DNA of 64,000 nt, taken from NCBI GenBank assembly GCA_016188575.1, contig JACPHN010000126.1, positions 14,105 through 78,104 on the forward strand. The letters are read 5' to 3'. Origin of the DNA: Candidatus Schekmanbacteria bacterium (GTDB taxonomy: Bacteria; CSSED10-310; JACPHN01). This document shows positions 7,663 to 27,276 of this stretch, piece after piece. The stretch's first letter is position 1. Every line of letters starts with the position of its first letter. Made by a program: the position numbers and the translations under genes. Below the pieces are notes generated by a model, which was not told the DNA's origin, ran no database searches, and worked only from the letters and a program-made list of their open reading frames with translations.

Positions 7663-8244
7663 TTACGCGATGCGCGTCACGGTCGTGGGTGTGATCTGGC
7701 AGCTCCGGCGCTCCCCCGTCGCAAGAAAGCGCTGCACGGCGCCGGCGAGGTGCGCGGCGGCGAGGGCGAAAAAGGCGAGTGCTTCACCGTTTTCGCAGGT
7801 CGCCGCGCCCTCTGATCCCTCCTCGTCCACGACAAAAAGCTCGTCCCACACGACGCGAGCAAAACCGCCGTCCGCGGACAAGGCGCCGTGCACGCATGGC
7901 AGGCCGAGCCGCCGAACGCTGACCTGGATCACGCGCCGCGTCGCCGCGTTATCGGTGCAGTCGACAACGAGATCACCTCCACCAAGCAGCACCTCGGCGT
8001 TATCCTCCGAAAGGCGATGCGGCACCGCCTCCAGGCGCGTGCCGAACATGCCTTGCATGGCCTGCTGCAGCGCCTGCGCCTTGTTTTTCCCGAGGCCCAT
8101 GCGCGTGTGAAACTGCGCGAGCAGGTTTTTCTGCTCAACGCGGTCGTAGTCTACAATCTTGATCCGCGCCGGCCAGTTGCGCGCCCAGAGCACCAGATGC
8201 GAACCCAAGGCACCCACGCCGACAATGACGACGCCTGCAGCCAT
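7663..8244 (-). CDS. ThiF/MoeB-like (E1-type) adenylating enzyme
   Basis: A 193-residue single-domain E1-like protein, the last gene of the Ro60-like cluster. It shows the Rossmann nucleotide loop GVGALG (9-14), the acidic strand end VDYDRVEQKNL (about 30-40) and the lysine segment LGKNKAQAL. The VDCTDNAATR motif that holds magnesium-ATP in this family is also present. A cysteine in ATCENGEALAF (about 147) is a candidate thioester residue. The arginine finger usually found in NLxRQ of MoeB/ThiF is replaced (NLLAQ). At about 190 residues it is a minimal E1 without extra domains. Its role is probably to adenylate the C-terminus of the ubiquitin-like protein encoded 27 bp upstream; this follows from family and neighbours, not from direct proof. 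Confidence 0.9.
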   Translation of the reverse strand: MAAGVVIVGVGALGSHLVLWARNWPARIKIVDYDRVEQKNLLAQFHTRMGLGKNKAQALQQAMQGMFGTRLEAVPHRLSEDNAEVLLGGGDLVVDCTDNAATRRVIQVSVRRLGLPCVHGALSADGGFARVVWDELFVVDEEGSEGAATCENGEALAFFALAAAHLAGAVQRFLATGERRSCQITPTTVTRIA

Positions 8245-8271
8245 CTGCTCGACTCCGCTTCCAGTGCCGGT

Positions 8272-8550
8272 TTAGCGACTGCCGAAGGGCGTCTTCGGTC
8301 TCAGAAAGATGCGATTCCACGGTACTTCTGCGGTGGCGCCGAAACGATCGACGACGAAATCCGCCAGATTCACCCGCACGTCTGCCTGAATTCCCGGCAC
8401 GTAACCGGTGCGGATCGCCTCCGCAGCGATGTTTCGGATTTCGCCGTCGGAAATGTCGAACGGCACTGGATCTGGGTAGTCTCCGTTGTTTCCTGCCCAG
8501 GTGATGTTGAGACGCGCTTGATGGATGTGCAGGACTTGCAGGTCAGGCAT
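8272..8550 (-). CDS. Candidate ubiquitin-like (beta-grasp) protein
   Basis: A 92-residue protein lying between the JAB peptidase gene (34 bp) and the E1 gene (27 bp). The order of elements suits a beta-grasp: two strands (LNITWAG, DPVPFDI), a helix (SDGEIRNIAAEAI), then strands (DVRVNLADFVVDRF, NRIFLRPKT). It ends PKTPFGSR, so it lacks a Gly-Gly tail; a single glycine followed by SR would have to be trimmed or used directly. The fold call rests on size, strand pattern and its place between a deconjugase and an E1, as in known bacterial Ubl operons. An unrelated small partner of the E1 is possible. Confidence 0.6.
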   Translation of the reverse strand: MPDLQVLHIHQARLNITWAGNNGDYPDPVPFDISDGEIRNIAAEAIRTGYVPGIQADVRVNLADFVVDRFGATAEVPWNRIFLRPKTPFGSR

Positions 8551-8583
8551 CGGTGACTTCCATGAGGGGCAGTGGTATCCGCG

Positions 8584-8973
8584 TCACGAATTAGATAGTG
8601 AGTCTTGCGACAGCTCCCGCAAACGCGCGATGTCGCTCTCGCGCAGGTTTGGGCAAGGAACGGAAGCGTAGTCCAGTCGGCCCGGTCCAAGCCAGGAAAA
8701 GCAGGCGCATTGATCGGCGGTGACGATCGACCAGACGAGCCGCCGGCCGAGCGCCGCCTCGCAGGCCGCAAACGTGGTCACATCCGTGGCGGAGGGCAAC
8801 GCTTCACCTGTCCACGGATGGGTATGGGCGACTGCACCGAGGCGCGACCGGTGCTCCCACAGCACCAGCCACAGCTCACGGGAGTCCGGCAACATCGCAC
8901 CGGTTCTTCCCTGTGGGAGATGCCAGTGAATGACCGTCCCGCGGTCGTCAAGGACGCAGGCGGCCTCAATCAT
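8584..8973 (-). CDS. JAB/JAMM-family metallopeptidase
   Basis: A 129-residue MPN-type peptidase. The start is placed at the ATG at 8973, which overlaps the stop of the preceding gene by 8 bp; two more in-frame ATGs lie a few codons upstream. The zinc-binding JAMM motif is visible as HTHP (50-53) followed by S61 and D64, one residue longer than the common HxHP-x6-SxxD spacing. A glutamate near the N-terminus (E3) could be the catalytic acid. Such enzymes cleave ubiquitin-like proteins from targets or process their C-termini. Its position directly before the beta-grasp and E1 genes fits that job. Confidence 0.85.
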   Translation of the reverse strand: MIEAACVLDDRGTVIHWHLPQGRTGAMLPDSRELWLVLWEHRSRLGAVAHTHPWTGEALPSATDVTTFAACEAALGRRLVWSIVTADQCACFSWLGPGRLDYASVPCPNLRESDIARLRELSQDSLSNS

Positions 8974-9934
8974 CGGCCACATCCTCGCCATCGTAGTAGT
9001 GGTTGCCGTCAGCAGCTACGTGGCGAAACACGACGAGGGCCCGCTCGTCCATGGCCTGTCCAACGACGACCGGGAGCGACTCGAGCGTGAAGTAGGTATC
9101 ACCGCATTCGCCCGTGCGCTCGTCCCGCAAGCAGATGCCCGCATCCGTCACGCGCAAGGTGTGCTTGTCGACGACGCACTCAAGCCGGCGCTCGCGAAAG
9201 CGATACTGTACGGTCATGTCATTGCCGCCATAGGCCGGGTGGGCGTCAAGGAGCTCTGCCCCCGACAACATCAAGGCCGCGCGCGCCGCCGCTTCGAAGT
9301 CGCGGGCTGCGAGGGCCCGCCGGCGGAGGCCGCTACCCGCGTCTCGGAGCGCCTGCCGCTGGCGCTCTTCCTGCTCCCGCAACCGCTCGAGCTCCTGCCT
9401 CCGCCGCTCGGCCAAATCGCGCTGCCAAGATAGCCAGCGGAAGGCAAGATCGAGAGCCGGGGTGACTGCGGGGATCTGATCCAGCGACGCGCGGCGGTCC
9501 AGATAAGCGGCGAGCACCTGCGGCTCGGGCCCGAGCGGAAAGTCCCGGCGGAGAAAAAGGAGCTCGCCGTCTGGGTCGGCGATAACTGCGGCGCGACAAA
9601 AGCGCTCCAGCCCCGGCTCCACGAGGTGCACCGGAAGCGTTTGCTTCACGAGCAGCGCCGGATCCGGGTCGACCCTGGCTTCGTCGGGGATCAGCCGATC
9701 TCCGACCAGATAACCTCGCCGAACGGGCCCATCGTCACCGAACGCGGGGTCGGGTTCGGCCGACGCGACAAACCTGACTCTGCGCCCTCCCGCAGGCGCG
9801 AACCGGCACCAGCCATGCTCCTGGGGAAGCTGTCCGGCGATGACGAAGGAGCGGCCGCGGGCATGCACCTTGCGTCCGCCGATCCAGGGCAATACGTGCT
9901 CCACCGGAGCTTCCAGCAGCGCTTGCCACCCCAT
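8966..9934 (-). CDS. Coiled-coil protein of unknown function in the Ro60-like/Ubl cluster
   Basis: A 322-residue protein that I do not recognise. The start is the ATG at 9934, one base after the stop of the VWA gene (TGAGATG), so translation is coupled; the open frame extends further upstream but only as an antisense-like shadow. Residues 1-165 are beta-rich (VHARGRSFVIAGQLP, RVRFVASAE). Residues about 168-205 form a charged coiled coil (ERRRQELERLREQEERQRQ). The C-terminal third looks globular and well conserved in style (ARDFEAAARAALMLSG, DAHPAYGGNDMTVQYRF, LRDERTGECGD). Its tail is acidic (YYDGEDVADD). Given its place, it may be an E2-like or adaptor component or a conjugation target; that is speculation. 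No catalytic cysteine context is evident. Confidence 0.8.
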   Translation of the reverse strand: MGWQALLEAPVEHVLPWIGGRKVHARGRSFVIAGQLPQEHGWCRFAPAGGRRVRFVASAEPDPAFGDDGPVRRGYLVGDRLIPDEARVDPDPALLVKQTLPVHLVEPGLERFCRAAVIADPDGELLFLRRDFPLGPEPQVLAAYLDRRASLDQIPAVTPALDLAFRWLSWQRDLAERRRQELERLREQEERQRQALRDAGSGLRRRALAARDFEAAARAALMLSGAELLDAHPAYGGNDMTVQYRFRERRLECVVDKHTLRVTDAGICLRDERTGECGDTYFTLESLPVVVGQAMDERALVVFRHVAADGNHYYDGEDVADD

Positions 9935-9935
9935 C

Positions 9936-11798
9936 TCAGGCCCAGACGGGCTTCTCCAACAGCGGCGTCTGCAGGATTTCGTCGAGCAGCCTGCCGTGCG
10001 ATCCGGCCGCCACCGGAGCCGCGGCAATGAGGTTACGCAACGTCCGCGTCACGGCGTAAGGATCGGCGAAAATGCCTTCGTCGAGGCGGAAGCACGGGAT
10101 GCCAAGCTCCTCCGCCGCGAGCTCGACCACGCGCAGAGTGGACCGGCTACCTGGGCTCCTCACCTCGAGCAGCCCGAAGGCCACGGGGCAAGAGCCGGTG
10201 GACCTGACGGTGTCGGCGAGCTGGCGGTGCCCGCCATCTTCCTGATCGCCAACGAAGATCATCAGCGCATCCTCACCGTCCGCCGGCCGGCGCCGCGCGA
10301 GCACGCGCACGCCCTCGGCGTACGACGTGCCGCCACCAGCGGCGTGCCCCTTGAAGGCCTGCTCGATCCCGGCCGCGGTGGCGCTCTTGATGGTCACCTC
10401 CGTTCCCACCGTGTTAAATACGGAAACGTGTAGGCGGTCGAGGCTGAAGGCGTGCAGGAATTTTGCGAGATACGACTTTGCCGTCTCGATCGCACCTTGC
10501 ATGGACCCTGACTTGTCCACGATCACGTAGACGCGGAAGTCGCGGGAAACCTCTTCGAGCGCCGCTTTCGTCGCTTTTTCGGCGGCCACCTGCAACTCAT
10601 CGGCGACTGCACGGCTCTTGACGTTCCGGGCGACATTTGCGGCGCGCTGGTTTTCGGCGCGGTCCATGGCCGCGCGCCAGCGGGCGCGGATGTCCGGGAC
10701 GGCGAGCAGCCCGAGCTCTTCGAGCGTTGGCGTAAAGATGATGAGATCCGTATCGGAGAGGGATCCCGCCTCGATCGCGGCGGCGCAAACGGCGGGCGTC
10801 AGCCCCACGGAGGGGGGCAGGAGCCCCACCAGACGCTTGAAGCCCGGTTTCTGGGCAACGATTCGCCGGCAGATTTCGGCCTCAGTGAGAGCATCCCAGG
10901 TTTCCGGTGGCGACACCGCGGCGCCGATGGCGATCCCGCGCCGCCCGTCGCTGGCCTGCTTCTGCTTCCAGCGCAAGATCTCGAAGAACTTCGGGGACAG
11001 GGGCTTGTAGCCGACGCGCCGGGCCAGCGCCATGACCGAAGTGCGGAAGCCGGCCTTGACGAGACCCTCCAACAGCCGCGGGTTATTCTCGCGGTTGCGG
11101 AGCCACTTTTCGACAGCCTTGTAATAGCGACCGCGTGCCGGCGCCCGGCCGGACTTTCCGAAGCCGAGCTCGCGGTTAATGGCGGCAATCTGGGGCAGAT
11201 TGAGCACGTCCCCGATCCGCAGGAGCAGTTTTGGGTTGAGGTCGTTTCTTGCGCGAAGCAGGCACATGGCCTCGCCAACAGCGCGGTAGTCGTCGTCGCG
11301 GAAGGCTACGCGGCCATCTTCGCGCACGGGCTCACCAGTGCGGCTCTGGACGAGCATAAACGCGGCGAGGAGCACCTTGAGGTCGCGGTGCTCACGGGGG
11401 AAAGCCCAGCTCGCCCAGCGCGCGGCAAGCTCGTTGTCGAGCTTGTAGACTTCGGCGATTTGCCGATATGCCCAGGCCGCCGCCTCGGGAAAAAGGCCGG
11501 CCAGGCGAAATTCGCCTACCTCGCGGTCGCCGTCCCACACTTTGCCATCGGCAAGCACGCCCAAGCGCGTCGCAGGCGCTCGGTCCCGGCGGCTGCTCAC
11601 TCCGTACAGAACGCGCCGCCCATCCTCGTCCTTCCAGCTTACGGCCTGCCAGCTCATGCCGAGATTGGACCGCGGAGCCGCAACGGCGATTCCAGGTCGG
11701 TGGTGGACGATGTGGTCAGCGTGCTGAATGAGAGCCGTCACGATTCTCTCGGCGGGTCCGAGCGCCTCTCGGCGGCGCGCATCGATTTCCTGGACCAT
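9936..11798 (-). CDS. Ro60-like protein: helical-repeat (TROVE-type) region plus VWA domain
   Basis: A 620-residue protein with an AGGAGGA ribosome site just before the ATG at 11798. Residues about 100-400 are all-helical repeats resembling the TROVE ring of Ro60/Rsr proteins (NNPRLLEGLVKAGFRTSVMA; NQRAANVARNVKSRAV). Residues about 420-610 are a von Willebrand A domain with a complete MIDAS site: DKSGS (428-432), T491 in GGGTSY and D518 in FVGDQED. Ro60 relatives bind misfolded RNAs and Y RNAs and hand them to exoribonucleases. A tRNA-like RNA lies on the same strand about 200 bp upstream, exactly the context reported for bacterial Ro60 genes. The VWA call is firm. The TROVE call rests on architecture and context, because the helical part is divergent. 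Confidence 0.82.
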   Translation of the reverse strand: MVQEIDARRREALGPAERIVTALIQHADHIVHHRPGIAVAAPRSNLGMSWQAVSWKDEDGRRVLYGVSSRRDRAPATRLGVLADGKVWDGDREVGEFRLAGLFPEAAAWAYRQIAEVYKLDNELAARWASWAFPREHRDLKVLLAAFMLVQSRTGEPVREDGRVAFRDDDYRAVGEAMCLLRARNDLNPKLLLRIGDVLNLPQIAAINRELGFGKSGRAPARGRYYKAVEKWLRNRENNPRLLEGLVKAGFRTSVMALARRVGYKPLSPKFFEILRWKQKQASDGRRGIAIGAAVSPPETWDALTEAEICRRIVAQKPGFKRLVGLLPPSVGLTPAVCAAAIEAGSLSDTDLIIFTPTLEELGLLAVPDIRARWRAAMDRAENQRAANVARNVKSRAVADELQVAAEKATKAALEEVSRDFRVYVIVDKSGSMQGAIETAKSYLAKFLHAFSLDRLHVSVFNTVGTEVTIKSATAAGIEQAFKGHAAGGGTSYAEGVRVLARRRPADGEDALMIFVGDQEDGGHRQLADTVRSTGSCPVAFGLLEVRSPGSRSTLRVVELAAEELGIPCFRLDEGIFADPYAVTRTLRNLIAAAPVAAGSHGRLLDEILQTPLLEKPVWA

Positions 11799-11847
11799 GG
11801 ACTCCTCCTGTGGGAGGCTTTCAGTGAAGAGCCGAACTCGAGAATAT

Positions 11848-11870
11848 CACGGCTCCCACTGGGAGCCGTG
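11848..11870. repeat. Perfect 10-bp inverted repeat upstream of the Ro60-like gene
   Basis: CACGGCTCCC (11848-11857), a 3-base loop, then the exact complement (11861-11870). It lies 50 bp before the start codon of the VWA gene on its 5' side. No T-run follows on either strand, so an operator or a leader hairpin is more likely than a terminator. Confidence 0.5.
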
Positions 11871-11874
11871 GAGT

Positions 11875-11967
11875 AAACAAAGGCGCGCGAGAGGAAAAGC
11901 GATGTTCTTTCCCTAAAGAAAGCGGGCCCAGTGGACCCTGGCTTGTATGCTTTCCCGGTTGCGCGCC
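11875..11967 (-). ncRNA. Candidate structured RNA (possible second Y RNA) with terminator-like end
   Basis: On the minus strand the segment starts with GGCGCGC (11961-11967) and closes with GCGCGCC (11882-11888). Inside this 7-bp stem a 4x4 internal loop (AACC/TCTC) is followed by a second 8-bp stem, GGGAAAGC paired with GCTTTTCC (one G-U). The apical part can form two short hairpins (GGGTCC-ACT-GGGCCC and CTTTC...GAAAG). The closing stem runs straight into TTTGTTT, like an intrinsic terminator. Such a terminal stem with an internal loop and open apex resembles a Ro-binding Y-RNA module. It could instead be part of one longer transcript with the tRNA-like RNA, or a leader of the VWA mRNA. Confidence 0.45.
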
Positions 11968-11995
11968 CTGGTCTTGGAATCGAAAAGAGGTCCTA

Positions 11996-12121
11996 CGGGG
12001 AAGGCGGGACTTGAACCCGCGACACTTGCATTCCTTGTATGCTCGACGAGTTGGCTTCCTAGCGGAAACCGAGTTGTAGAGCGATTTTTCAGGCAAAGCT
12101 CTACCCCTGAGCTACTTCCCC
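11996..12121 (-). ncRNA. tRNA-like RNA with 56-nt insertion at the anticodon loop (YrlA-type Y-RNA candidate)
   Basis: Read on the minus strand: acceptor GGGGAAG pairs with CTTCCCC, discriminator G, no encoded CCA. The D arm is GCTC-AGGGGTA-GAGC and the T arm GCGGG-TTCAAGT-CCCGC, both canonical. The anticodon arm starts TTTGC then CTGAAAA (a tRNA-Phe-style GAA loop), but its 3' stem partner GCAAG comes only 56 nt later, followed by TGTC as in tRNA-Phe. The insertion forms a 7-bp hairpin, GGTTTCC-GCTA-GGAAGCC (one G-U), and further short pairings. It lies 197 bp upstream of, and codirectional with, the Ro60-like gene. Bacterial Y RNAs of the YrlA class are encoded next to Ro60 genes and contain a tRNA-mimic domain (established). 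A tRNA-Phe interrupted by an unusual small insert is the main alternative. Confidence 0.7.
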
Positions 12122-21127: not shown

Positions 21128-24100
21128 TCACACCGCAGTACCCGGCCACGACTCCAGACGCTCTGCATTGACGTCCAACGCCACCGCCTCCGCCGCTGCG
21201 GAGGTGAAGAGCCCGACGGCGTGCCCCAGGTCAACCTCGACGCGCGTCGCAGCCCCCCACGCAGAGGACAACCGTGCGGTGCCGAGAGCTTCGATCACAT
21301 GCCGGCGCAGCGACCGTTCGAGGTTGCGAGCACCATACTCAGGATCGAAGCCGTCATGGACCACGCGCCCGCGAAGCCGATCCGTAAGCACCAACTCCTT
21401 ACCTTCCTGCCGGAGGCGCGCCACTACTACCTGTAGCTTCAGGTCCAGGATGCGCTGGATGTCTGCCGGGCTGAGAGGGCGGAAGAGCAGGATCTCGTCG
21501 ATGCGGTTCAAGAATTCCGGGCTCAAGCCCTGCCGGATGCTGCGCAGGAGGGAATCATCGGTGGCGAGCATGGCCGGACCGTCGCCGTTAGCGTAGCCCA
21601 CCCGGTGGCGACCGAAGAGCTCGGCACCCAGGTTGCTGGTCATGATCACGATGGCGTGCTGGAAATAGGTGTGTTGGCCGCGCCCATCGGTCAGCCGCCC
21701 GGAATCGAAGACCTGCAGGAACAGGTTGAGCACCTGTGGACTGGCCTTTTCAATCTCGTCCAGCAGCACAACCGTGTGCGGTTGTCGGCGCACCGCGTCG
21801 GTGAGCTGGTTTCGATCCTGATAGCCCACGTATCCCGGCGAAACACCGACCAGTTTGGTCGAGGCGATATGCTCGCCGAATTCGCTCATGTCGATACGCA
21901 CCATGCGGTCCTCATCGCCGAGCAGGAGGACGGCGATCGCGCGCGCGAGCTCGGTCTTGCCGACACCCGTGGGACCCGCAAAAAGAAAGACACCTTTGGG
22001 CCGATGCGGGTGCAAACCGAGTCCCTGGAGGCGTGCGCGTAGCACGCTCGCCACGCGTCCAATCACCTCGTCCTGACCAACAATGCGCGTGCCAAGCTCG
22101 GCCGCGAGCACCGCCAAGCGCTCGTCCCGGGCCGGCGAGATGCGCTCAGGCGGTACGGCGGCGAGGTGCGCCACAACGTCAGCGACATCGCGAGCGGTCA
22201 CGGACGGGATCGCCACCTGCTCCGGCGCACCGCCCGCGGTACGGGCCACGCGCGACGCCGCCAGATCGAGGATATCGAGCGCCTTGTCAGGCAGGTAGCG
22301 ATCGCGCAGGTAGAGCCGCGGCAGGGCGGCCGCGGTGTCGAGCGCCGCGGGTTCGAACCGCACGCCGTGGAAGCGCGCCAGCTCGTCCTCCCGGGAGCGC
22401 AGGATACTCGCCGCCACCGGCTCGCTTGGCTCGAAGACGTGCACGAGCTGAAAGCGGCGCTCCAGAGCCGCATCCTTCTGCAGGCGCGCGCGGTACTCAT
22501 CCGGAGTGGTAGCCCCGACCACGGGAATCTGCGGAGATGCCAACACCGGCTGCAGCAGCGTGACAATGTCCAGGGATGCGTTGCGCGGGCCACTGGCGCT
22601 GGCCACGGTGTGCAGGTCGTCGACGAAGAGGATCGTGCGGCCCCTGTCCAGCACCGTGCGAGCAACGTGCACGACCCGCTCCTCGAACTGCCCGCGGTAC
22701 CGTGCTCCGGCCACCATTTCACCGGCGCGGAGCCGCACGAGACCGAATGCGGCAAGTCGCGACGGTGCGGTACCTGTGGCCACCAGCCTGGCGAGCTCAT
22801 AAATGAGCGCCGTCTTTCCGACGCCGGGCTCACCGATGAGCAGCGCGTTATTCTTGTACGCGCAGGACAGAATGTCCAGCAACTCCTGGATATCGCGGTC
22901 GCGCCCCAACAGCGGAGCGGGAGGAGCGGCCCTGACCGCCGCCACAAGGTCCTCCGCGAGCTCCCAGAAGGAGGGCTCGCCGCTCACCGCGGTCGCGGCG
23001 GCAGGCGGCGCCGGGGCCGGAGCGGTGAGGTGGGCGCCGCCCCCGGCGCGCGGCGTCGCCTCGCTCTCAGCGGCCGGTCTGTCCGCACGGCAGGCTTCGC
23101 GCCTCTCCCCGGCCGCGCCTCCCGCACCGTACCCGGCGGCGAGCACACCAAGGGCCCAGGCATTGCCCGGATCGCTCTCGAGGAGTCTCCCTGCCGCCGC
23201 GCGCGCCTCAGCCCACCGGCCGAGATGAACCAGGCCCCGGCCCAGGATCTCGGACAGGTTGGCGGAACGTTCGTCGTCCGTTGGCTGACAGCGCAGACAG
23301 CTTGCCACCGCATCCACCGGCCGTCCAAGCCGCAGGTAGGACAGCGCCAGCATCGCCGCAATCCGCTCATTTCGGGGCGCGAGCTCGAGGGCCGCCCGAA
23401 ACTGCTCCGCAGAGCGTTCGGCGTCGCCGTGCCGGTAAGCGCGATGGCCAAGCGCCTGATGCACATACAGCAGACCCTCACGGATCCGTGGATCCGCGGG
23501 TGCCTGCTGCATGCCGGCGAGCAGCACGGTCTGCGCGGGGACGTAGAACTTTCTTTTGAGGAGTAGGCGGGCCAACGAGGATATCAACGGCGACGAGCAA
23601 TTGAGGCGACGGTGGCCGGTGAGCACGTCAGCCATCAGCAGACCCTGGGAGCTCACGCTGCGCAAGAGGAAAAGATGGTCGCGCTCGCATTCCGGGCAGC
23701 GCTCCCAGACGGCGAACGGGTGCAGCGGCAGCCAACCCTCGTGATAGCGCAACCCGGCAATGGCCTCCTCGCTCGCCCGGCCGCCCTCCTCCCCGGCGCC
23801 CCGTGGCCGCAGCTCGATGATCGCTTCACGGGTCCACGTCATGCGGTCCAGCTCTTCTGCCACGGAAGTCGCGTAGACTGCGAGCAGCCGCGAACGGTCC
23901 GCCGCGGTCCTGGGCTCCGCTGCGTTGGCGGCCTTCACCGACAGGAAATCCTCAATCAGGCACGCTAGCGAGCTTGGCTGACCGTTGGGTAGCAGGAGCA
24001 GAGCTCGTAGCTCGGGGAGGAACCAGCGCGGCCCCACAGACGACAGGCATTCAATGAGGAAGGAGCGCCAATCTTCGGTGCCTCCCCGCTCCAGGCAGTG

Positions 24101-24313
24101 GCTGAGATGCGCCTGACGTTCCCCGGAGGCGCCTTCACGGCGAAAGAAGTCCGCGGCAGTCACAATCCCAAAGATGGCCACAATGCCGTCAATCGCGGCC
24201 GCAAGACCGCGCCAGCGCTGAGCGGGCTCCGCGTGCTCGATGGTGCCTAGCCGCAAGCGCTCGAAAACATCGCAGAGCGACTGGCCAGCAGCGGTGTCAG
24301 AAAGTGTGGACAT
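21128..24313 (-). CDS. ClpA/ClpB-like double AAA+ ATPase with N-terminal TPR region
   Basis: A 1061-residue protein (start ATG 24313, MSTLSDTAAGQ; no strong ribosome site). It lacks a Clp-N domain. The first 220 residues are unique, then comes a CPEC pair near 245 and TPR-like helices at about 300-420. AAA domain 1 has Walker A GEPGVGKTA near 494 and Walker B ILFVDDLHTV. The linker to domain 2 is short, without the long ClpB middle domain. Domain 2 has GPTGVGKTE near 779, VVLLDEIEKA, TSNLG and the C-terminal D2-small domain (EYGARNLERSLRRHV). It is thus an unfoldase with its own recognition domain, rather than a standard Clp. No ClpP-binding loop can be claimed. It follows the small membrane protein and diiron protein genes. 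Confidence 0.9.
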   Translation of the reverse strand: MSTLSDTAAGQSLCDVFERLRLGTIEHAEPAQRWRGLAAAIDGIVAIFGIVTAADFFRREGASGERQAHLSHCLERGGTEDWRSFLIECLSSVGPRWFLPELRALLLLPNGQPSSLACLIEDFLSVKAANAAEPRTAADRSRLLAVYATSVAEELDRMTWTREAIIELRPRGAGEEGGRASEEAIAGLRYHEGWLPLHPFAVWERCPECERDHLFLLRSVSSQGLLMADVLTGHRRLNCSSPLISSLARLLLKRKFYVPAQTVLLAGMQQAPADPRIREGLLYVHQALGHRAYRHGDAERSAEQFRAALELAPRNERIAAMLALSYLRLGRPVDAVASCLRCQPTDDERSANLSEILGRGLVHLGRWAEARAAAGRLLESDPGNAWALGVLAAGYGAGGAAGERREACRADRPAAESEATPRAGGGAHLTAPAPAPPAAATAVSGEPSFWELAEDLVAAVRAAPPAPLLGRDRDIQELLDILSCAYKNNALLIGEPGVGKTALIYELARLVATGTAPSRLAAFGLVRLRAGEMVAGARYRGQFEERVVHVARTVLDRGRTILFVDDLHTVASASGPRNASLDIVTLLQPVLASPQIPVVGATTPDEYRARLQKDAALERRFQLVHVFEPSEPVAASILRSREDELARFHGVRFEPAALDTAAALPRLYLRDRYLPDKALDILDLAASRVARTAGGAPEQVAIPSVTARDVADVVAHLAAVPPERISPARDERLAVLAAELGTRIVGQDEVIGRVASVLRARLQGLGLHPHRPKGVFLFAGPTGVGKTELARAIAVLLLGDEDRMVRIDMSEFGEHIASTKLVGVSPGYVGYQDRNQLTDAVRRQPHTVVLLDEIEKASPQVLNLFLQVFDSGRLTDGRGQHTYFQHAIVIMTSNLGAELFGRHRVGYANGDGPAMLATDDSLLRSIRQGLSPEFLNRIDEILLFRPLSPADIQRILDLKLQVVVARLRQEGKELVLTDRLRGRVVHDGFDPEYGARNLERSLRRHVIEALGTARLSSAWGAATRVEVDLGHAVGLFTSAAAEAVALDVNAERLESWPGTAV

Positions 24314-24405
24314 CAGGAATTGCCCGACGTGTCGTCTCGCAGATGCTGCCGTGCCCGCGATCGCGCGGGGGCAGCCGTGGCCGCAGCGGGGCGCGCCGGC
24401 GACGA

Positions 24406-24555
24406 CTATTCGTTTGCCGTTGTCTCCGCGCCACCAAGGAAGCGATGACAGCCGTACAGCAATCCGGTCATCGCCAATCCAAAGACAAAGAGGAAGCCGC
24501 CGACACCTGCTTCGACCGCGAGCGTCACGAAGCCTCGGGATGGTGGAGCAGTCAT
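24406..24555 (-). CDS. Small single-span membrane protein (49 residues)
   Basis: This short gene is easy to overlook. Its ATG at 24555 overlaps the stop of the diiron gene as ATGA, and it ends with TAG at 24406, 92 bp before the AAA+ gene. The product starts MTAPPSRGFVTLAVEAG, then one membrane helix (GGFLFVFGLAMTGLLYG), a short CHRFLGG turn and a polar tail. Tight translational coupling and a sensible membrane topology support a real gene. It may anchor or couple the diiron protein or the AAA+ protein at the membrane; function unknown. Confidence 0.65.
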   Translation of the reverse strand: MTAPPSRGFVTLAVEAGVGGFLFVFGLAMTGLLYGCHRFLGGAETTANE

Positions 24556-25547
24556 GCGGCCCACTCCAATACCCGCTCTCCAAGCCGGGCGGTTCCACTC
24601 ATGAGGTCATGGGCAAGGCGCAGCCAGCGGGGCCGCGGTGCTCCTGGTCTGGGGAAGTAGAAGTCGATAGCCAGGTTGTTGGCCTTGAGCAGCATGTCCG
24701 GAGGAATGTAGATGCCCCGCGTTCCGCCGTCGGCCTGTCCCATCGCCTGAAAGATCTCGAGCTGGTTACTGATACCGTTGCGGAACACGCGGTGCAGGTC
24801 CACGCCCAGCGCCTCGAATGACTCGCGCAGCAGTATTGTCGCCCAAACGATAAACGTCGTCACCTTGACCTGAAAAAGCTGTAGGCGAAGGGACTCCGCG
24901 CGGCTCAGCTTCGCGAGCATGGCCGGCAAGAACATGACGCCAAGGCCGACGTGGCGCGCCTCGTCTTGCTCAAAGTAGGGCATCAGCTCGGCGAGGACGG
25001 GCTCGACCCCCCCTTTGGCGACGCCGCGGAACAAGTGCACAGCCACGTTTTCGACGAGGAGCTGCATGCCAATGAGCTTTTCGACGAGGCTGCCCGCTTC
25101 GAGCACGCTCACGAGTATGGCACGGGTGTACCCGTCCAGCGGCGGAACGTCGACGCCGAGAGCGAGCAGATAGTCGCGCATGGTGTAGAAATGCCGCGCC
25201 TCGTCAAAGGCCTGCCCGGTCGCCGCCATCTTGGCCTCGACGTCGTCGAGCGCCTCGGCGATCTCCGCGGAGATGTGCCATGCCGCCAGCTCGCCCCACA
25301 GGATGATGCTAAAGACGCGCGCGATCGCCTCCTTCTTGGGCGCTGGCAGCGAAATCCCGCCGTGCCTCTGGAGCAACCGGTCCAGAACCTCGCGGCCATC
25401 CCACGCCTTTTTTTGACCGATGTGGTAGAGGCGTTCGAGCCGTCCGAACGAAAGCTGCGCTTCCTTGAGGTAATCGCGCTCGATCAGGCGATAGGGGGGA
25501 AACTGGGCATTGTTGCGGCCGGAAATGGAGCTCAGAATCTCGACCAT
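24552..25547 (-). CDS. Ferritin-like diiron protein
   Basis: A 331-residue, mostly helical protein (start ATG 25547, behind GGAGCAGAG). Two E-x-x-H iron motifs are visible: FDEARHF near residue 115 and EQDEARHVG near 197. Additional acidic residues in neighbouring helices (LWGELAAWH near 82, SLVEKLIG near 150) complete the four-helix diiron pattern. This is the layout of R2-like oxidases and metal-dependent hydroxylases. The substrate is unknown. It is the first gene of a three-gene unit with the small membrane protein and the TPR-AAA+ ATPase. Confidence 0.82.
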   Translation of the reverse strand: MVEILSSISGRNNAQFPPYRLIERDYLKEAQLSFGRLERLYHIGQKKAWDGREVLDRLLQRHGGISLPAPKKEAIARVFSIILWGELAAWHISAEIAEALDDVEAKMAATGQAFDEARHFYTMRDYLLALGVDVPPLDGYTRAILVSVLEAGSLVEKLIGMQLLVENVAVHLFRGVAKGGVEPVLAELMPYFEQDEARHVGLGVMFLPAMLAKLSRAESLRLQLFQVKVTTFIVWATILLRESFEALGVDLHRVFRNGISNQLEIFQAMGQADGGTRGIYIPPDMLLKANNLAIDFYFPRPGAPRPRWLRLAHDLMSGTARLGERVLEWAA

Positions 25548-25708: not shown

Positions 25709-26932
25709 TCAATCGTAGGGATCGTAGTCGACCTCCTCCGGGATTAGCGAGCCGAGCTCGCGCAGGCAGGCTTCGGCGCGCGGGCCGCCGATCTGCTTCA
25801 GGGCAGCCCCGACCTGGCTCGCTTGATAGGCCTCGCAGCCGCCGCGCACAAAGGCGGCGAGCGGCGCGATCACGCGCTCGTCCACGACACCGCACAGCAC
25901 GTAGGCGGTATACCACTGCGGTCGCGCCAACAGCGAGCCGATCAATGCCTCGACGACGCGTGGGTCATCTCGGTGTGAGGCGAGACCGAGCACAGCGGCG
26001 CTCGCGAGGGTGGCGTTGACGTTCGGAGCGCGGAGGATGGCGACAAAGGGCGCGATCACGCGGGCGTCGCGACTGGTGGCCAGGGCCCGCGCGGCGAGGT
26101 CTCGCAGCGCGGGGTCGGCGAGATCGGCGATCAGCGCCTCGATGGCCACCTCATGGACCGTCCAGGGCAGACTGTCCAGTCCGAGCTGCGCCGCCGCGGA
26201 CGCGCGCACAAAGGGATCGGCATGAAGCGCGAGCGGGACAAGCGCCTCCTTGGCGCCGCCGGCATGGAGGCTGCAAATGGCCTCGGCCGTCAGCGCGTGG
26301 TCCGTATTCTGCGCGATGAGGGCGACGAGCGGTGCCACCGCCTCCGGCCAGCCCAGGCGCGCCAGCGCCAACAGCGCCGCCCGCCGAGCTCGCGGTGAGC
26401 GGTCTTTTGCGTACATCGCGGCGAGCGGCGCCAGGGCGTCCTCACACATCCTCGCGACCGCCTTGCGAAAATCGTCGCCCCAGAGGCCGCCTTTGGAGCG
26501 TACGCAATCCTTGGCCTCCGACAGGCGACACAGGGCGCGCGCCGCGGCCTCGCGAACACCCGGGTCGGAGTCCCGCAGCGCCTCGCACAAGGCCGCTACA
26601 TTCTCATCGCTCGCCGGGACGTCATGCCAGCAGCCCAGTCCCTTGGTGATGGCCCAGGCACCGGTCATGGCGATGGCCTCCCCGAGCGCACTGGCGCATG
26701 CTCGCCGGATCGACGCGACGGGGTCCAGTAGGAGTGGCCCTACGAGGAGGCTGGAAAGCTCCCACTGCCAGTTCGCAACCGCGCGGATGGCGAGGAGGCG
26801 GTCCCGCGAGTTGCGGCTTCCCAACACGATGCGCGCGGCATCGCGGCGCGCGTACACGTCCGGGCTTGCAAGCGCTTCACGCAGAGATGGATCAATCACC
26901 TTAGCTCCCCATGCCCGGAGCCGAACTGCCAT
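25709..26932 (-). CDS. HEAT-repeat (PBS-lyase-type) protein
   Basis: A 407-residue protein from the ATG at 26932 (MAVRLRAWGAKVIDPSL); an upstream in-frame ATG at 27034 would add 34 residues of weak composition. The whole chain is built from about 11-12 HEAT repeats with recurring ...DPxVRxxAAxALxxL... units (SDPGVREAAARALCRL, ADPFVRASAAAQLGL). The C-terminus is acidic (PEEVDYDPYD). Such proteins are scaffolds or phycobilin-lyase-like adaptors; no enzyme motif is present. Roughly 345 bp upstream have no clear gene. Confidence 0.85.
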   Translation of the reverse strand: MAVRLRAWGAKVIDPSLREALASPDVYARRDAARIVLGSRNSRDRLLAIRAVANWQWELSSLLVGPLLLDPVASIRRACASALGEAIAMTGAWAITKGLGCWHDVPASDENVAALCEALRDSDPGVREAAARALCRLSEAKDCVRSKGGLWGDDFRKAVARMCEDALAPLAAMYAKDRSPRARRAALLALARLGWPEAVAPLVALIAQNTDHALTAEAICSLHAGGAKEALVPLALHADPFVRASAAAQLGLDSLPWTVHEVAIEALIADLADPALRDLAARALATSRDARVIAPFVAILRAPNVNATLASAAVLGLASHRDDPRVVEALIGSLLARPQWYTAYVLCGVVDERVIAPLAAFVRGGCEAYQASQVGAALKQIGGPRAEACLRELGSLIPEEVDYDPYD

Positions 26933-27276
26933 AACCTGTCCGGCCGCGTCTCTCGCCAGCACTCGCGCAGCGCCAGAAAAAGCGGGTTCCGCGGCACGCG
27001 CTGTGGAACCCGCAAAGTGGCGCAAACAGCTCATGACCGCAACCCAGTCTCCTGTTCCAAACTACCCCGTAGCACCTTGAAAAACAAGGGCTTCATATAG
27101 GAAGCCAAGTCGGCCCCAAGCTCCCGCCCGGGAAGGAGCTTTTCTCCCCCGATTTCCAAGTTCCGGACGAGGATGCTGAGTTTGCAGCGAAACCGGATAC
27201 CAAGGGCATCGCCACAACCCATGGTCTTGGTTCGCCGTACATCCGGCTCGATTCCGAAAATCGGAATCGAGCTGAC

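Follow-up and report, generated by a model that had tools for sequence, protein, structure and literature searches.

A bacterial chromosomal locus resembling a huge-phage cassette that may couple a Ro60-type ribonucleoprotein to minimal ubiquitin-like conjugation

The window analyzed here is a stretch of DNA of 64,000 nt, and all coordinates are positions within it. Its minus strand carries, in order, a tRNA-mimic (Y-like) RNA, a protein with a VWA domain, a protein referred to as X353, a JAB metallopeptidase, a small candidate ubiquitin-like protein (Ubl) and a minimal E1. All six elements lie where the preliminary description had placed them, and the 197-bp leader that it reported between the RNA and the VWA ORF is correct. 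A prophage at the window is ruled out, as the genes on both sides of the cassette are ordinary chromosomal ones, and a plasmid search gave no match.

The VWA protein (9936..11798, minus strand, 620 aa, VWA domain C-terminal) had been described as having Ro60 architecture. Foldseek comparison of its AF2 model (pLDDT 81.3) with the PDB returned TROVE/Ro60 chains at all of ranks 1–9, with E values from 1.6e-7 to 1.2e-5 over 542–583 columns and 12–15% identity. This agrees with the proposed architecture and upholds the TROVE-like character of the helical part, a check that had been set beforehand. Pfam TROVE (PF05731) matched none of the 55 family members up to E 0.1 and nothing in the genome from which the window derives, and a PDB sequence search with a first 8-row profile found no Ro60, which was found by fold comparison alone. 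Since Pfam TROVE is without a match, the Ro60 identity rests on the predicted fold, according to which the protein is of TROVE/Ro60 architecture, with a helical-repeat (HEAT) body and a VWA domain. The MIDAS residues D428, S430, S432, T491 and D518 are invariant in 55/55 members. In the VIA structural comparison of the model, the matches were filled by single VWA domains.

The RNA (11996..12121, minus strand, 126 nt) scores 49.2 bits with the Rfam tRNA model, covering the whole model with a 59-nt insert, and is not called by ARAGORN. It comprises a 7-bp acceptor stem, a D arm, a T arm, a degenerate anticodon arm and, internally, a Y-like stem bearing a CUCG motif and the 3' flank GCAUACAAG, and its fold has a z of -3.6. 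No Y RNA family is among the matches listed for it by Rfam up to E 10. Searches for tRNA mimics used first a descriptor of a tRNA with a long insert, then a motif test and finally a covariance model; the descriptor alone was replaced because it was too loose and also joined neighboring tRNAs. The motif test found 31 mimics on the strand of the cassette and one on the opposite strand. With the covariance model R1 the window RNA scores 53.1 bits and is the sole match in its own genome (9.2 Mb). By covariance model, 48 of 62 loci have tRNA mimics next to the cassette, and the internal stem of these RNAs covaries strongly (score 0.789 compared to 0.238 in shuffles), in line with the earlier proposal that a tRNA mimic is linked to the Ro60-like gene. 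One could instead take these RNAs for true decoding or suppressor tRNAs that have no relation to Ro60 and whose variable arm is of giant size. The full tRNA frame, the acceptor stem present in all 55 mimics checked and the apparent encoded CCA in 14 of the 55 speak for such tRNAs; however, the anticodon loops have no common anticodon and have often lost U33, and several mimics, that of the window among them, lack the anticodon arm or have it only in degenerate form, which leaves this explanation scarcely credible.

The arrangement is reminiscent of bacterial Rsr/Ro60 and YrlA, where a TROVE/Ro60-fold VWA protein likewise adjoins a tRNA-mimicking noncoding RNA. In contrast to Rsr/Ro60, the cassette protein has no Pfam TROVE match, is only 12–15% identical and carries an extra N-terminal beta segment. 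The Rsr-binding stem of YrlA is made by its 5' and 3' ends (PMC8394870), whereas in the cassette RNA the ends pair as the acceptor stem and the Y-like stem lies inside; the cassette adds a family of tRNA-mimic RNAs with a topology unlike that of YrlA. It also differs from the rsr-yrlBA-rtcBA operons in that RtcB and RtcA are not among its five conserved genes while Ubl genes are present.

X353 (8966..9934, minus strand) was listed as an ORF starting at TTG 10027, but comparison with homologues places the start at ATG 9934, one base past the VWA stop, giving a protein of 322 aa whose ORF overlaps the JAB ORF by 26 nt. It is kept in 57 loci and is predicted to consist of an OB-fold-like N-terminal part, a long coiled coil and a C-terminal beta part. 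The best fold matches of its AF2 model (pLDDT 89.9) are weak (Z 6) and include the Mpa/ARC inter-domain and RNA-binding OB folds, among them RNase R, and no match below E 0.001 was found in BFVD. The resemblance to RNA-binding folds would fit an RNA-decay or repair particle of the RYPER kind (Ro60, Y RNA and exonuclease), in which a nuclease would be tethered by the mimic, with the Ubl genes acting only as a switch that turns the particle on or off through modification of the Ro60 protein or of X353. Bacterial Y RNA is known to tether PNPase to Rsr (PMC7790460, PMC8394870). However, the conserved genes of the cassette include no exonuclease and the RNA topology is unlike that of YrlA (PMC8394870), and we consider a particle of the RYPER kind unlikely.

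The JAB/JAMM metallopeptidase (8584..8991, minus strand, 135 aa) belongs to a family of which 54 of 55 members match Pfam Prok-JAB (best 8.1e-9). Its JAMM motif E...HxH...SxxD is intact, as the earlier assignment would lead one to expect: E9, H56, H58, S67 and D70 are invariant where aligned in the 55 members. The E1 (7663..8244, minus strand, 193 aa) is a minimal ThiF-MoeB-like adenylyltransferase, with a Pfam ThiF match of 5e-24 and PDB profile matches to MoeB (4.2e-16), Uba4 and ThiF. Residues G9, G11, G14, D32, Q44, K55, D95 and C150 are invariant in 53 sequences, R35 is kept in 49 and N40 in 52. Judged from the alignment, the predicted nucleotide-site residues and the putative acceptor cysteine are intact, consistent with the minimal E1 claimed previously. 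The cassette contains no E2 or E3.

The candidate Ubl (8272..8550, minus strand, 92 aa) ends in RPKTPFG-SR. Among its 58 homologues, position 90 is Gly in 57, the end is Phe-Gly in 55 and only one has a GG end; tails of variable length (0–61 residues) past the Gly are present in 46. A Phe-Gly end combined with variable tails is what maturation by the JAB would need. Atg8 is a Ubl with a Phe-Gly end of the same kind. A beta-grasp fold is plausible for this protein. Sequence and profile searches gave no link to any known Ubl, and searches of Pfam, NCBIfam and PDB with the 58 candidates gave scattered chance matches only. PRTRC protein C, suggested by the pattern NG..LPDP...G, was ruled out (hhalign probability 1.2%), as was ThiS (0.2%).

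A small protein with a C-terminal Gly, an E1-like adenylyltransferase and a JAB are likewise combined in prokaryotic Ubl-E1-JAB operons, PRTRC, type II CBASS, Bil and Bub. Compared with PRTRC, CBASS, Bil and Bub, the cassette has a Ro60-type ribonucleoprotein (RNP), and no E2-type partner, CD-NTase, ParB or PRTRC B, E or F was recognized among its five conserved genes. Only the E1 aligns with the PRTRC set (PRTRC ThiF, hhalign 95.6%); no relative of PRTRC C, A, B, E, F or ParB was found with single-sequence templates and, for C, an 11-row profile. Archaeal SAMP/UbaA/HvJAMM and Urm1/Uba4 also have an E1 and a JAMM protein without a dedicated E2, and the cassette differs from SAMP and Urm1 in its Phe-Gly rather than Gly-Gly end, its minimal 193-aa E1, its phage context and its RNA partner. 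It offers a minimal, E2-less system whose candidate Ubl has a Phe-Gly end.

Besides the window, the five-gene cassette is present in a single further bacterial MAG and about 60 viral contigs, the largest of 619 kb; its main home is huge phages that carry tRNA arrays. In a scan that started from the Ro60 gene, gene order and strand were identical in all 51 viral loci with all five genes; in the remaining ten viral loci the missing genes all fall near a contig or fetch end. An independent scan starting from the E1 yielded 54 loci, and in 48 of them the Ro60 gene was recovered. Co-occurrence of the VWA gene with the E1 and JAB genes, a neighborhood relationship raised in the preliminary description, is therefore near-obligatory; the refuting case named beforehand, in which E1 and JAB would rarely go with the VWA gene, is clearly contradicted. 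Since tens of viral contigs repeat the five-gene order together with this type of RNA, the cassette is far beyond chance. In a few phages its genes are spread over 10.8 kb, indicating that it is not always one operon. It is conceivable that the Ro60 RNP is one system and the Ubl genes another, independent of it, and that they travel together by chance in a tRNA-array hot spot, as regions of this kind gather unrelated small genes and homing endonucleases. Several observations make this highly improbable: order and strand are fixed wherever a viral locus is complete, even though insertions separate some genes and the proteins have diverged by ~50%, each of the two scans finds the other half, and both bacterial copies retain the Ro60 side and the Ubl side. 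The bacterial copies look captured from phage, twice.

The cassette lies inside phage tRNA arrays, where the tRNA genes surrounding it can number in the tens. Ro60-type proteins, often with tRNA arrays, likewise occur in phages: TROVE proteins are described in jumbo phages and in archaeal tRNA clusters (PMC7824862, PMC6333295), and a Ro60 is described for Thermus phage phiLo (PDB 9l5y). In contrast to the cassette, no ubiquitin-like, E1 or JAB partners are mentioned in the passages found on them in the two papers or in the title of the PDB entry. The tRNA setting, together with MoeB, Uba4 and ThiF as the closest relatives of the E1 by sequence, could suggest that the small protein and the E1 are a sulfur-carrier pair (as in ThiS-ThiF, Urm1-Uba4 and TtuB-TtuC) that thiolates phage tRNAs or mimics, with the Ro60 RNP chaperoning the RNA pool and the JAB only maturing the carrier. 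We find this improbable, since sulfur carriers of the ThiS/MoaD/Urm1 class end in Gly-Gly, as do those retrieved for comparison, whereas the candidate Ubl mostly ends in Phe-Gly, and since the recurrent neighbors of the cassette look like homing endonucleases, with no thiolase, rhodanese or desulfurase seen among them.

These results lead us to propose, with moderate confidence, that the window holds, in a bacterial chromosome, a copy of a cassette of huge phages that couples a Ro60-type RNP to a minimal Ubl conjugation machine; the cassette is best read as a phage Ubl conjugation system that works without an E2 and is coupled to an RNP. In such a system the tRNA-mimic RNA would bind the Ro60-like ring via its internal CUCG stem and display the elbow and acceptor end of a tRNA, which could attract tRNA-handling proteins, while the OB-like domains and coiled coil of X353 may bridge RNA and proteins. 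The JAB would trim the candidate Ubl to its Phe-Gly end, and the E1 would adenylate it and carry it on Cys150. With no E2 among the conserved genes, the Ubl might be handed over to proteins located on the RNP or close by, and the JAB could reverse the conjugation. A link to RNA surveillance or stress may also exist.

The likeliest use for a phage would be protection of its large tRNA set and translation, for example if host tRNA-cleaving enzymes were baited and tagged. It has been proposed that YrlA may competitively inhibit an anticodon nuclease (PMC7790460). We speculate that the cassette could perform RNA-directed Ubl tagging, where host proteins that bind tRNA, such as anti-phage anticodon nucleases, are selected by a tRNA-shaped bait on the Ro60 ring and have the Phe-Gly-ended Ubl conjugated to them by the E1-Ubl-JAB set; this would be a counter-defence of huge phages captured by bacteria, a scenario that we regard as doubtful in this specific form.

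Both Ro60/Y RNA particles and ubiquitin-like tagging are ancient and play important roles in eukaryotes, and in the open-access literature we found no description of a system joining the two. A compact, fixed cassette in some of the largest phages makes the connection testable and provides a route to the purpose of phage Ro60 and tRNA arrays. The huge-phage home of the cassette and its apparent capture by bacteria were absent from the preliminary description.

The cassette occupies the minus strand of the window and comprises, in transcription order, a tRNA-like RNA (12121-11996) and the genes for a VWA protein of 620 aa (11798-9936), the 322-aa protein X353 (9934-8966), a JAB protein (8991-8584), a 92-aa protein that is the Ubl candidate (8550-8272) and a ThiF-type E1 (8244-7663). 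The X353 reading frame as listed has 353 aa from an upstream TTG; homologues support a start at ATG 9934, one base past the VWA stop. The flanking genes are ones usual in bacterial chromosomes (protein kinase-TPR, amine oxidase, PEMT, GNAT, FHA, subtilase, NrfD and a ClpB-like AAA protein), and the 9.2-Mb assembly of 275 contigs contains a single copy of the VWA gene. Outside the cassette, a ClpB-like AAA protein with TPRs adjoins a HEAT-repeat protein (21128-24598 and 25709-27034).

A profile search with the VWA protein found 61 cassette loci among viral contigs that reach 619 kb in length; these are counted as loci and not as independent events, some contigs being near-duplicates. The complete five-gene set is present in 51 of the 61, always on one strand and in the order VWA, X353, JAB, Ubl, E1 (51/51), over 4.1-10.8 kb; in the other ten, missing genes are confined to a cut-off side or to the vicinity of the end of the fetched stretch. 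A scan with E1 alone gave 54 loci, with the VWA gene in 48 and X353, JAB and Ubl together in 51, and some of the loci without a full set are likewise cut. The association of a Ro60-like gene with JAB, Ubl and E1, proposed in the preliminary description from one locus, is thus borne out from either end of the cassette. In some phages the genes are separated by inserts that by eye resemble homing endonucleases of HNH, LAGLIDADG and GIY-YIG types, so the conserved core consists of the five genes. One uncultured phage of 595 kb, unannotated, has an E1 relative of 39.5% identity (LR756511.1, 280772-281122). In another viral contig (L108, IMGVR_UViG_3300007504_000959) two Y-like RNAs lie upstream of an E1 relative, together with a fragmentary VWA match and no match to X353, JAB or Ubl; this is perhaps a decayed or reduced cassette.

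No close relative of the VWA protein was found in plasmids, and annotated phages yielded one, in Virus Rctr197k, immediately after an array of about 30 tRNA genes. There (L003:8992-11891) the VWA gene is annotated merely as a misc_feature, the X353 gene is uncalled and a hypothetical gene is placed on the opposite strand. Very large tRNA arrays surround the cassette in this and other viral contigs (L003, L004, L006, L009, L018 and others), reaching 45 tRNA genes in 18 kb and including, in several, a tmRNA gene. The bacterial genome collection contained one close relative, in a Proteobacteria MAG (60% identity, five genes present), in a scan by short exact peptide patterns that more distant copies may have escaped. 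In the cassette of this MAG, Ubl comes ahead of JAB (L001:12012-12685), unlike in the window and all complete phage loci. In the VWA tree, taken as unrooted, the two bacterial rows are not sisters: a supported clade of ten (99/97) places both among phage rows, which is most simply read as two separate captures from phages.

Pfam detects the VWA domain alone, and its TROVE family matched none of 55 members. In the AlphaFold prediction (mean pLDDT 81, from 54 aligned rows), helical repeats are followed by the VWA domain and preceded by an extra beta-rich stretch (~36-98); MIDAS residues are invariant. Against 350,542 PDB chains, Foldseek placed TROVE/Ro60 chains in the first nine ranks (542-583 columns, 12-15% identity), with Ro60 of Thermus phage phiLo among them, so the predicted fold supports the Ro60 architecture suggested earlier. 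Whole-length TM-scores are modest (0.26-0.38 of query), and domain orientations may therefore differ from known Ro60.

The window RNA matches Rfam tRNA over its full length with a 59-nt insert, and similar insert-bearing RNAs adjoin the cassette in relatives. They share an internal stem, GCnnnn...CUCG, a hairpin and ...nnnnGC-nYACA(A/C)G, followed by the T arm. A test for motif plus stem yielded 31 unique cases in the orientation of the cassette and one in the opposite orientation. The 30 aligned stems have 91.3% of cells paired and a covariation score of 0.789, versus 63.7% and 0.238 in shuffles, with a sharp drop on sliding. A covariance model, trained on 30 of its own matches with about 80 others independent, detects RNAs of this type next to the cassette in 48 of 62 loci (L065 counted). 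A locus has as many as six, usually at 100-500 bp after E1 or ahead of VWA, and the model has one match in the window's assembly. The best matches examined are 101-163 nt long and have an acceptor stem of 6-7 bp (55/55); anticodon arms vary, share no anticodon and are absent or degenerate in some, the window included. The topology differs from that of YrlA, where the Rsr-binding stem is built from the two ends (PMC8394870); here the ends pair as the acceptor stem and the Y-like stem is internal. We call the RNA Y-like by analogy.

Prok-JAB matched 54 of 55 JAB members, with invariant JAMM residues. The best PDB relatives of the E1 are MoeB, Uba4 and ThiF, and its nucleotide-site residues and Cys150 are invariant in 53. 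Profile searches with the 92-aa protein matched no Ubl, and its beta-grasp fold is presumed. It has a conserved ...RPKTPFG, with the Gly in 57 of 58; homologues end at this Gly in 12 cases and carry tails of 1 to 61 residues in 46, a pattern that would be expected of a JAB-trimmed precursor. X353 is modeled confidently (pLDDT 89.9): a part rich in beta structure at the N terminus is followed by a long coiled coil and then by a beta part at the C terminus. Its best match, a weak one (Z 6.0, rmsd 3.9, 105 aligned), is to the proteasomal ATPase Mpa, in its tandem OB inter-domain, and such a Z may reflect only a common arrangement; other weak best matches are RNA-binding OB folds.

Each component is a variant of something known: TROVE proteins of jumbo phages have been described (PMC7824862), 20 of 29 tRNA clusters of archaea contain TROVE genes (PMC6333295), and Ubl-E1-JAB sets are known (PMC1779556). 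A full-text search of open-licence literature found no paper joining TROVE/Ro60 with Ubl-E1-JAB, and the whole system has no described counterpart that could be found there.

We propose that the RNA would sit on the Ro60-like ring and its tRNA elbow would draw tRNA-handling proteins. The Ubl candidate, matured by JAB and activated by E1, would reach proteins on or near the RNP, no E2 being among the conserved genes, and X353 would serve as a bridge. YrlA has been proposed as a possible competitive inhibitor of an anticodon nuclease (PMC7790460); that proposal and the tRNA arrays make defence of the phage tRNA pool the likeliest purpose, the main rivals being roles in RNA decay or repair and in tRNA thiolation. 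A third Y-like RNA of the Proteobacteria MAG lies on another of its contigs (L148; genome G008, C20:63808-63889), where it adjoins other tRNA genes, apparently without a cassette.
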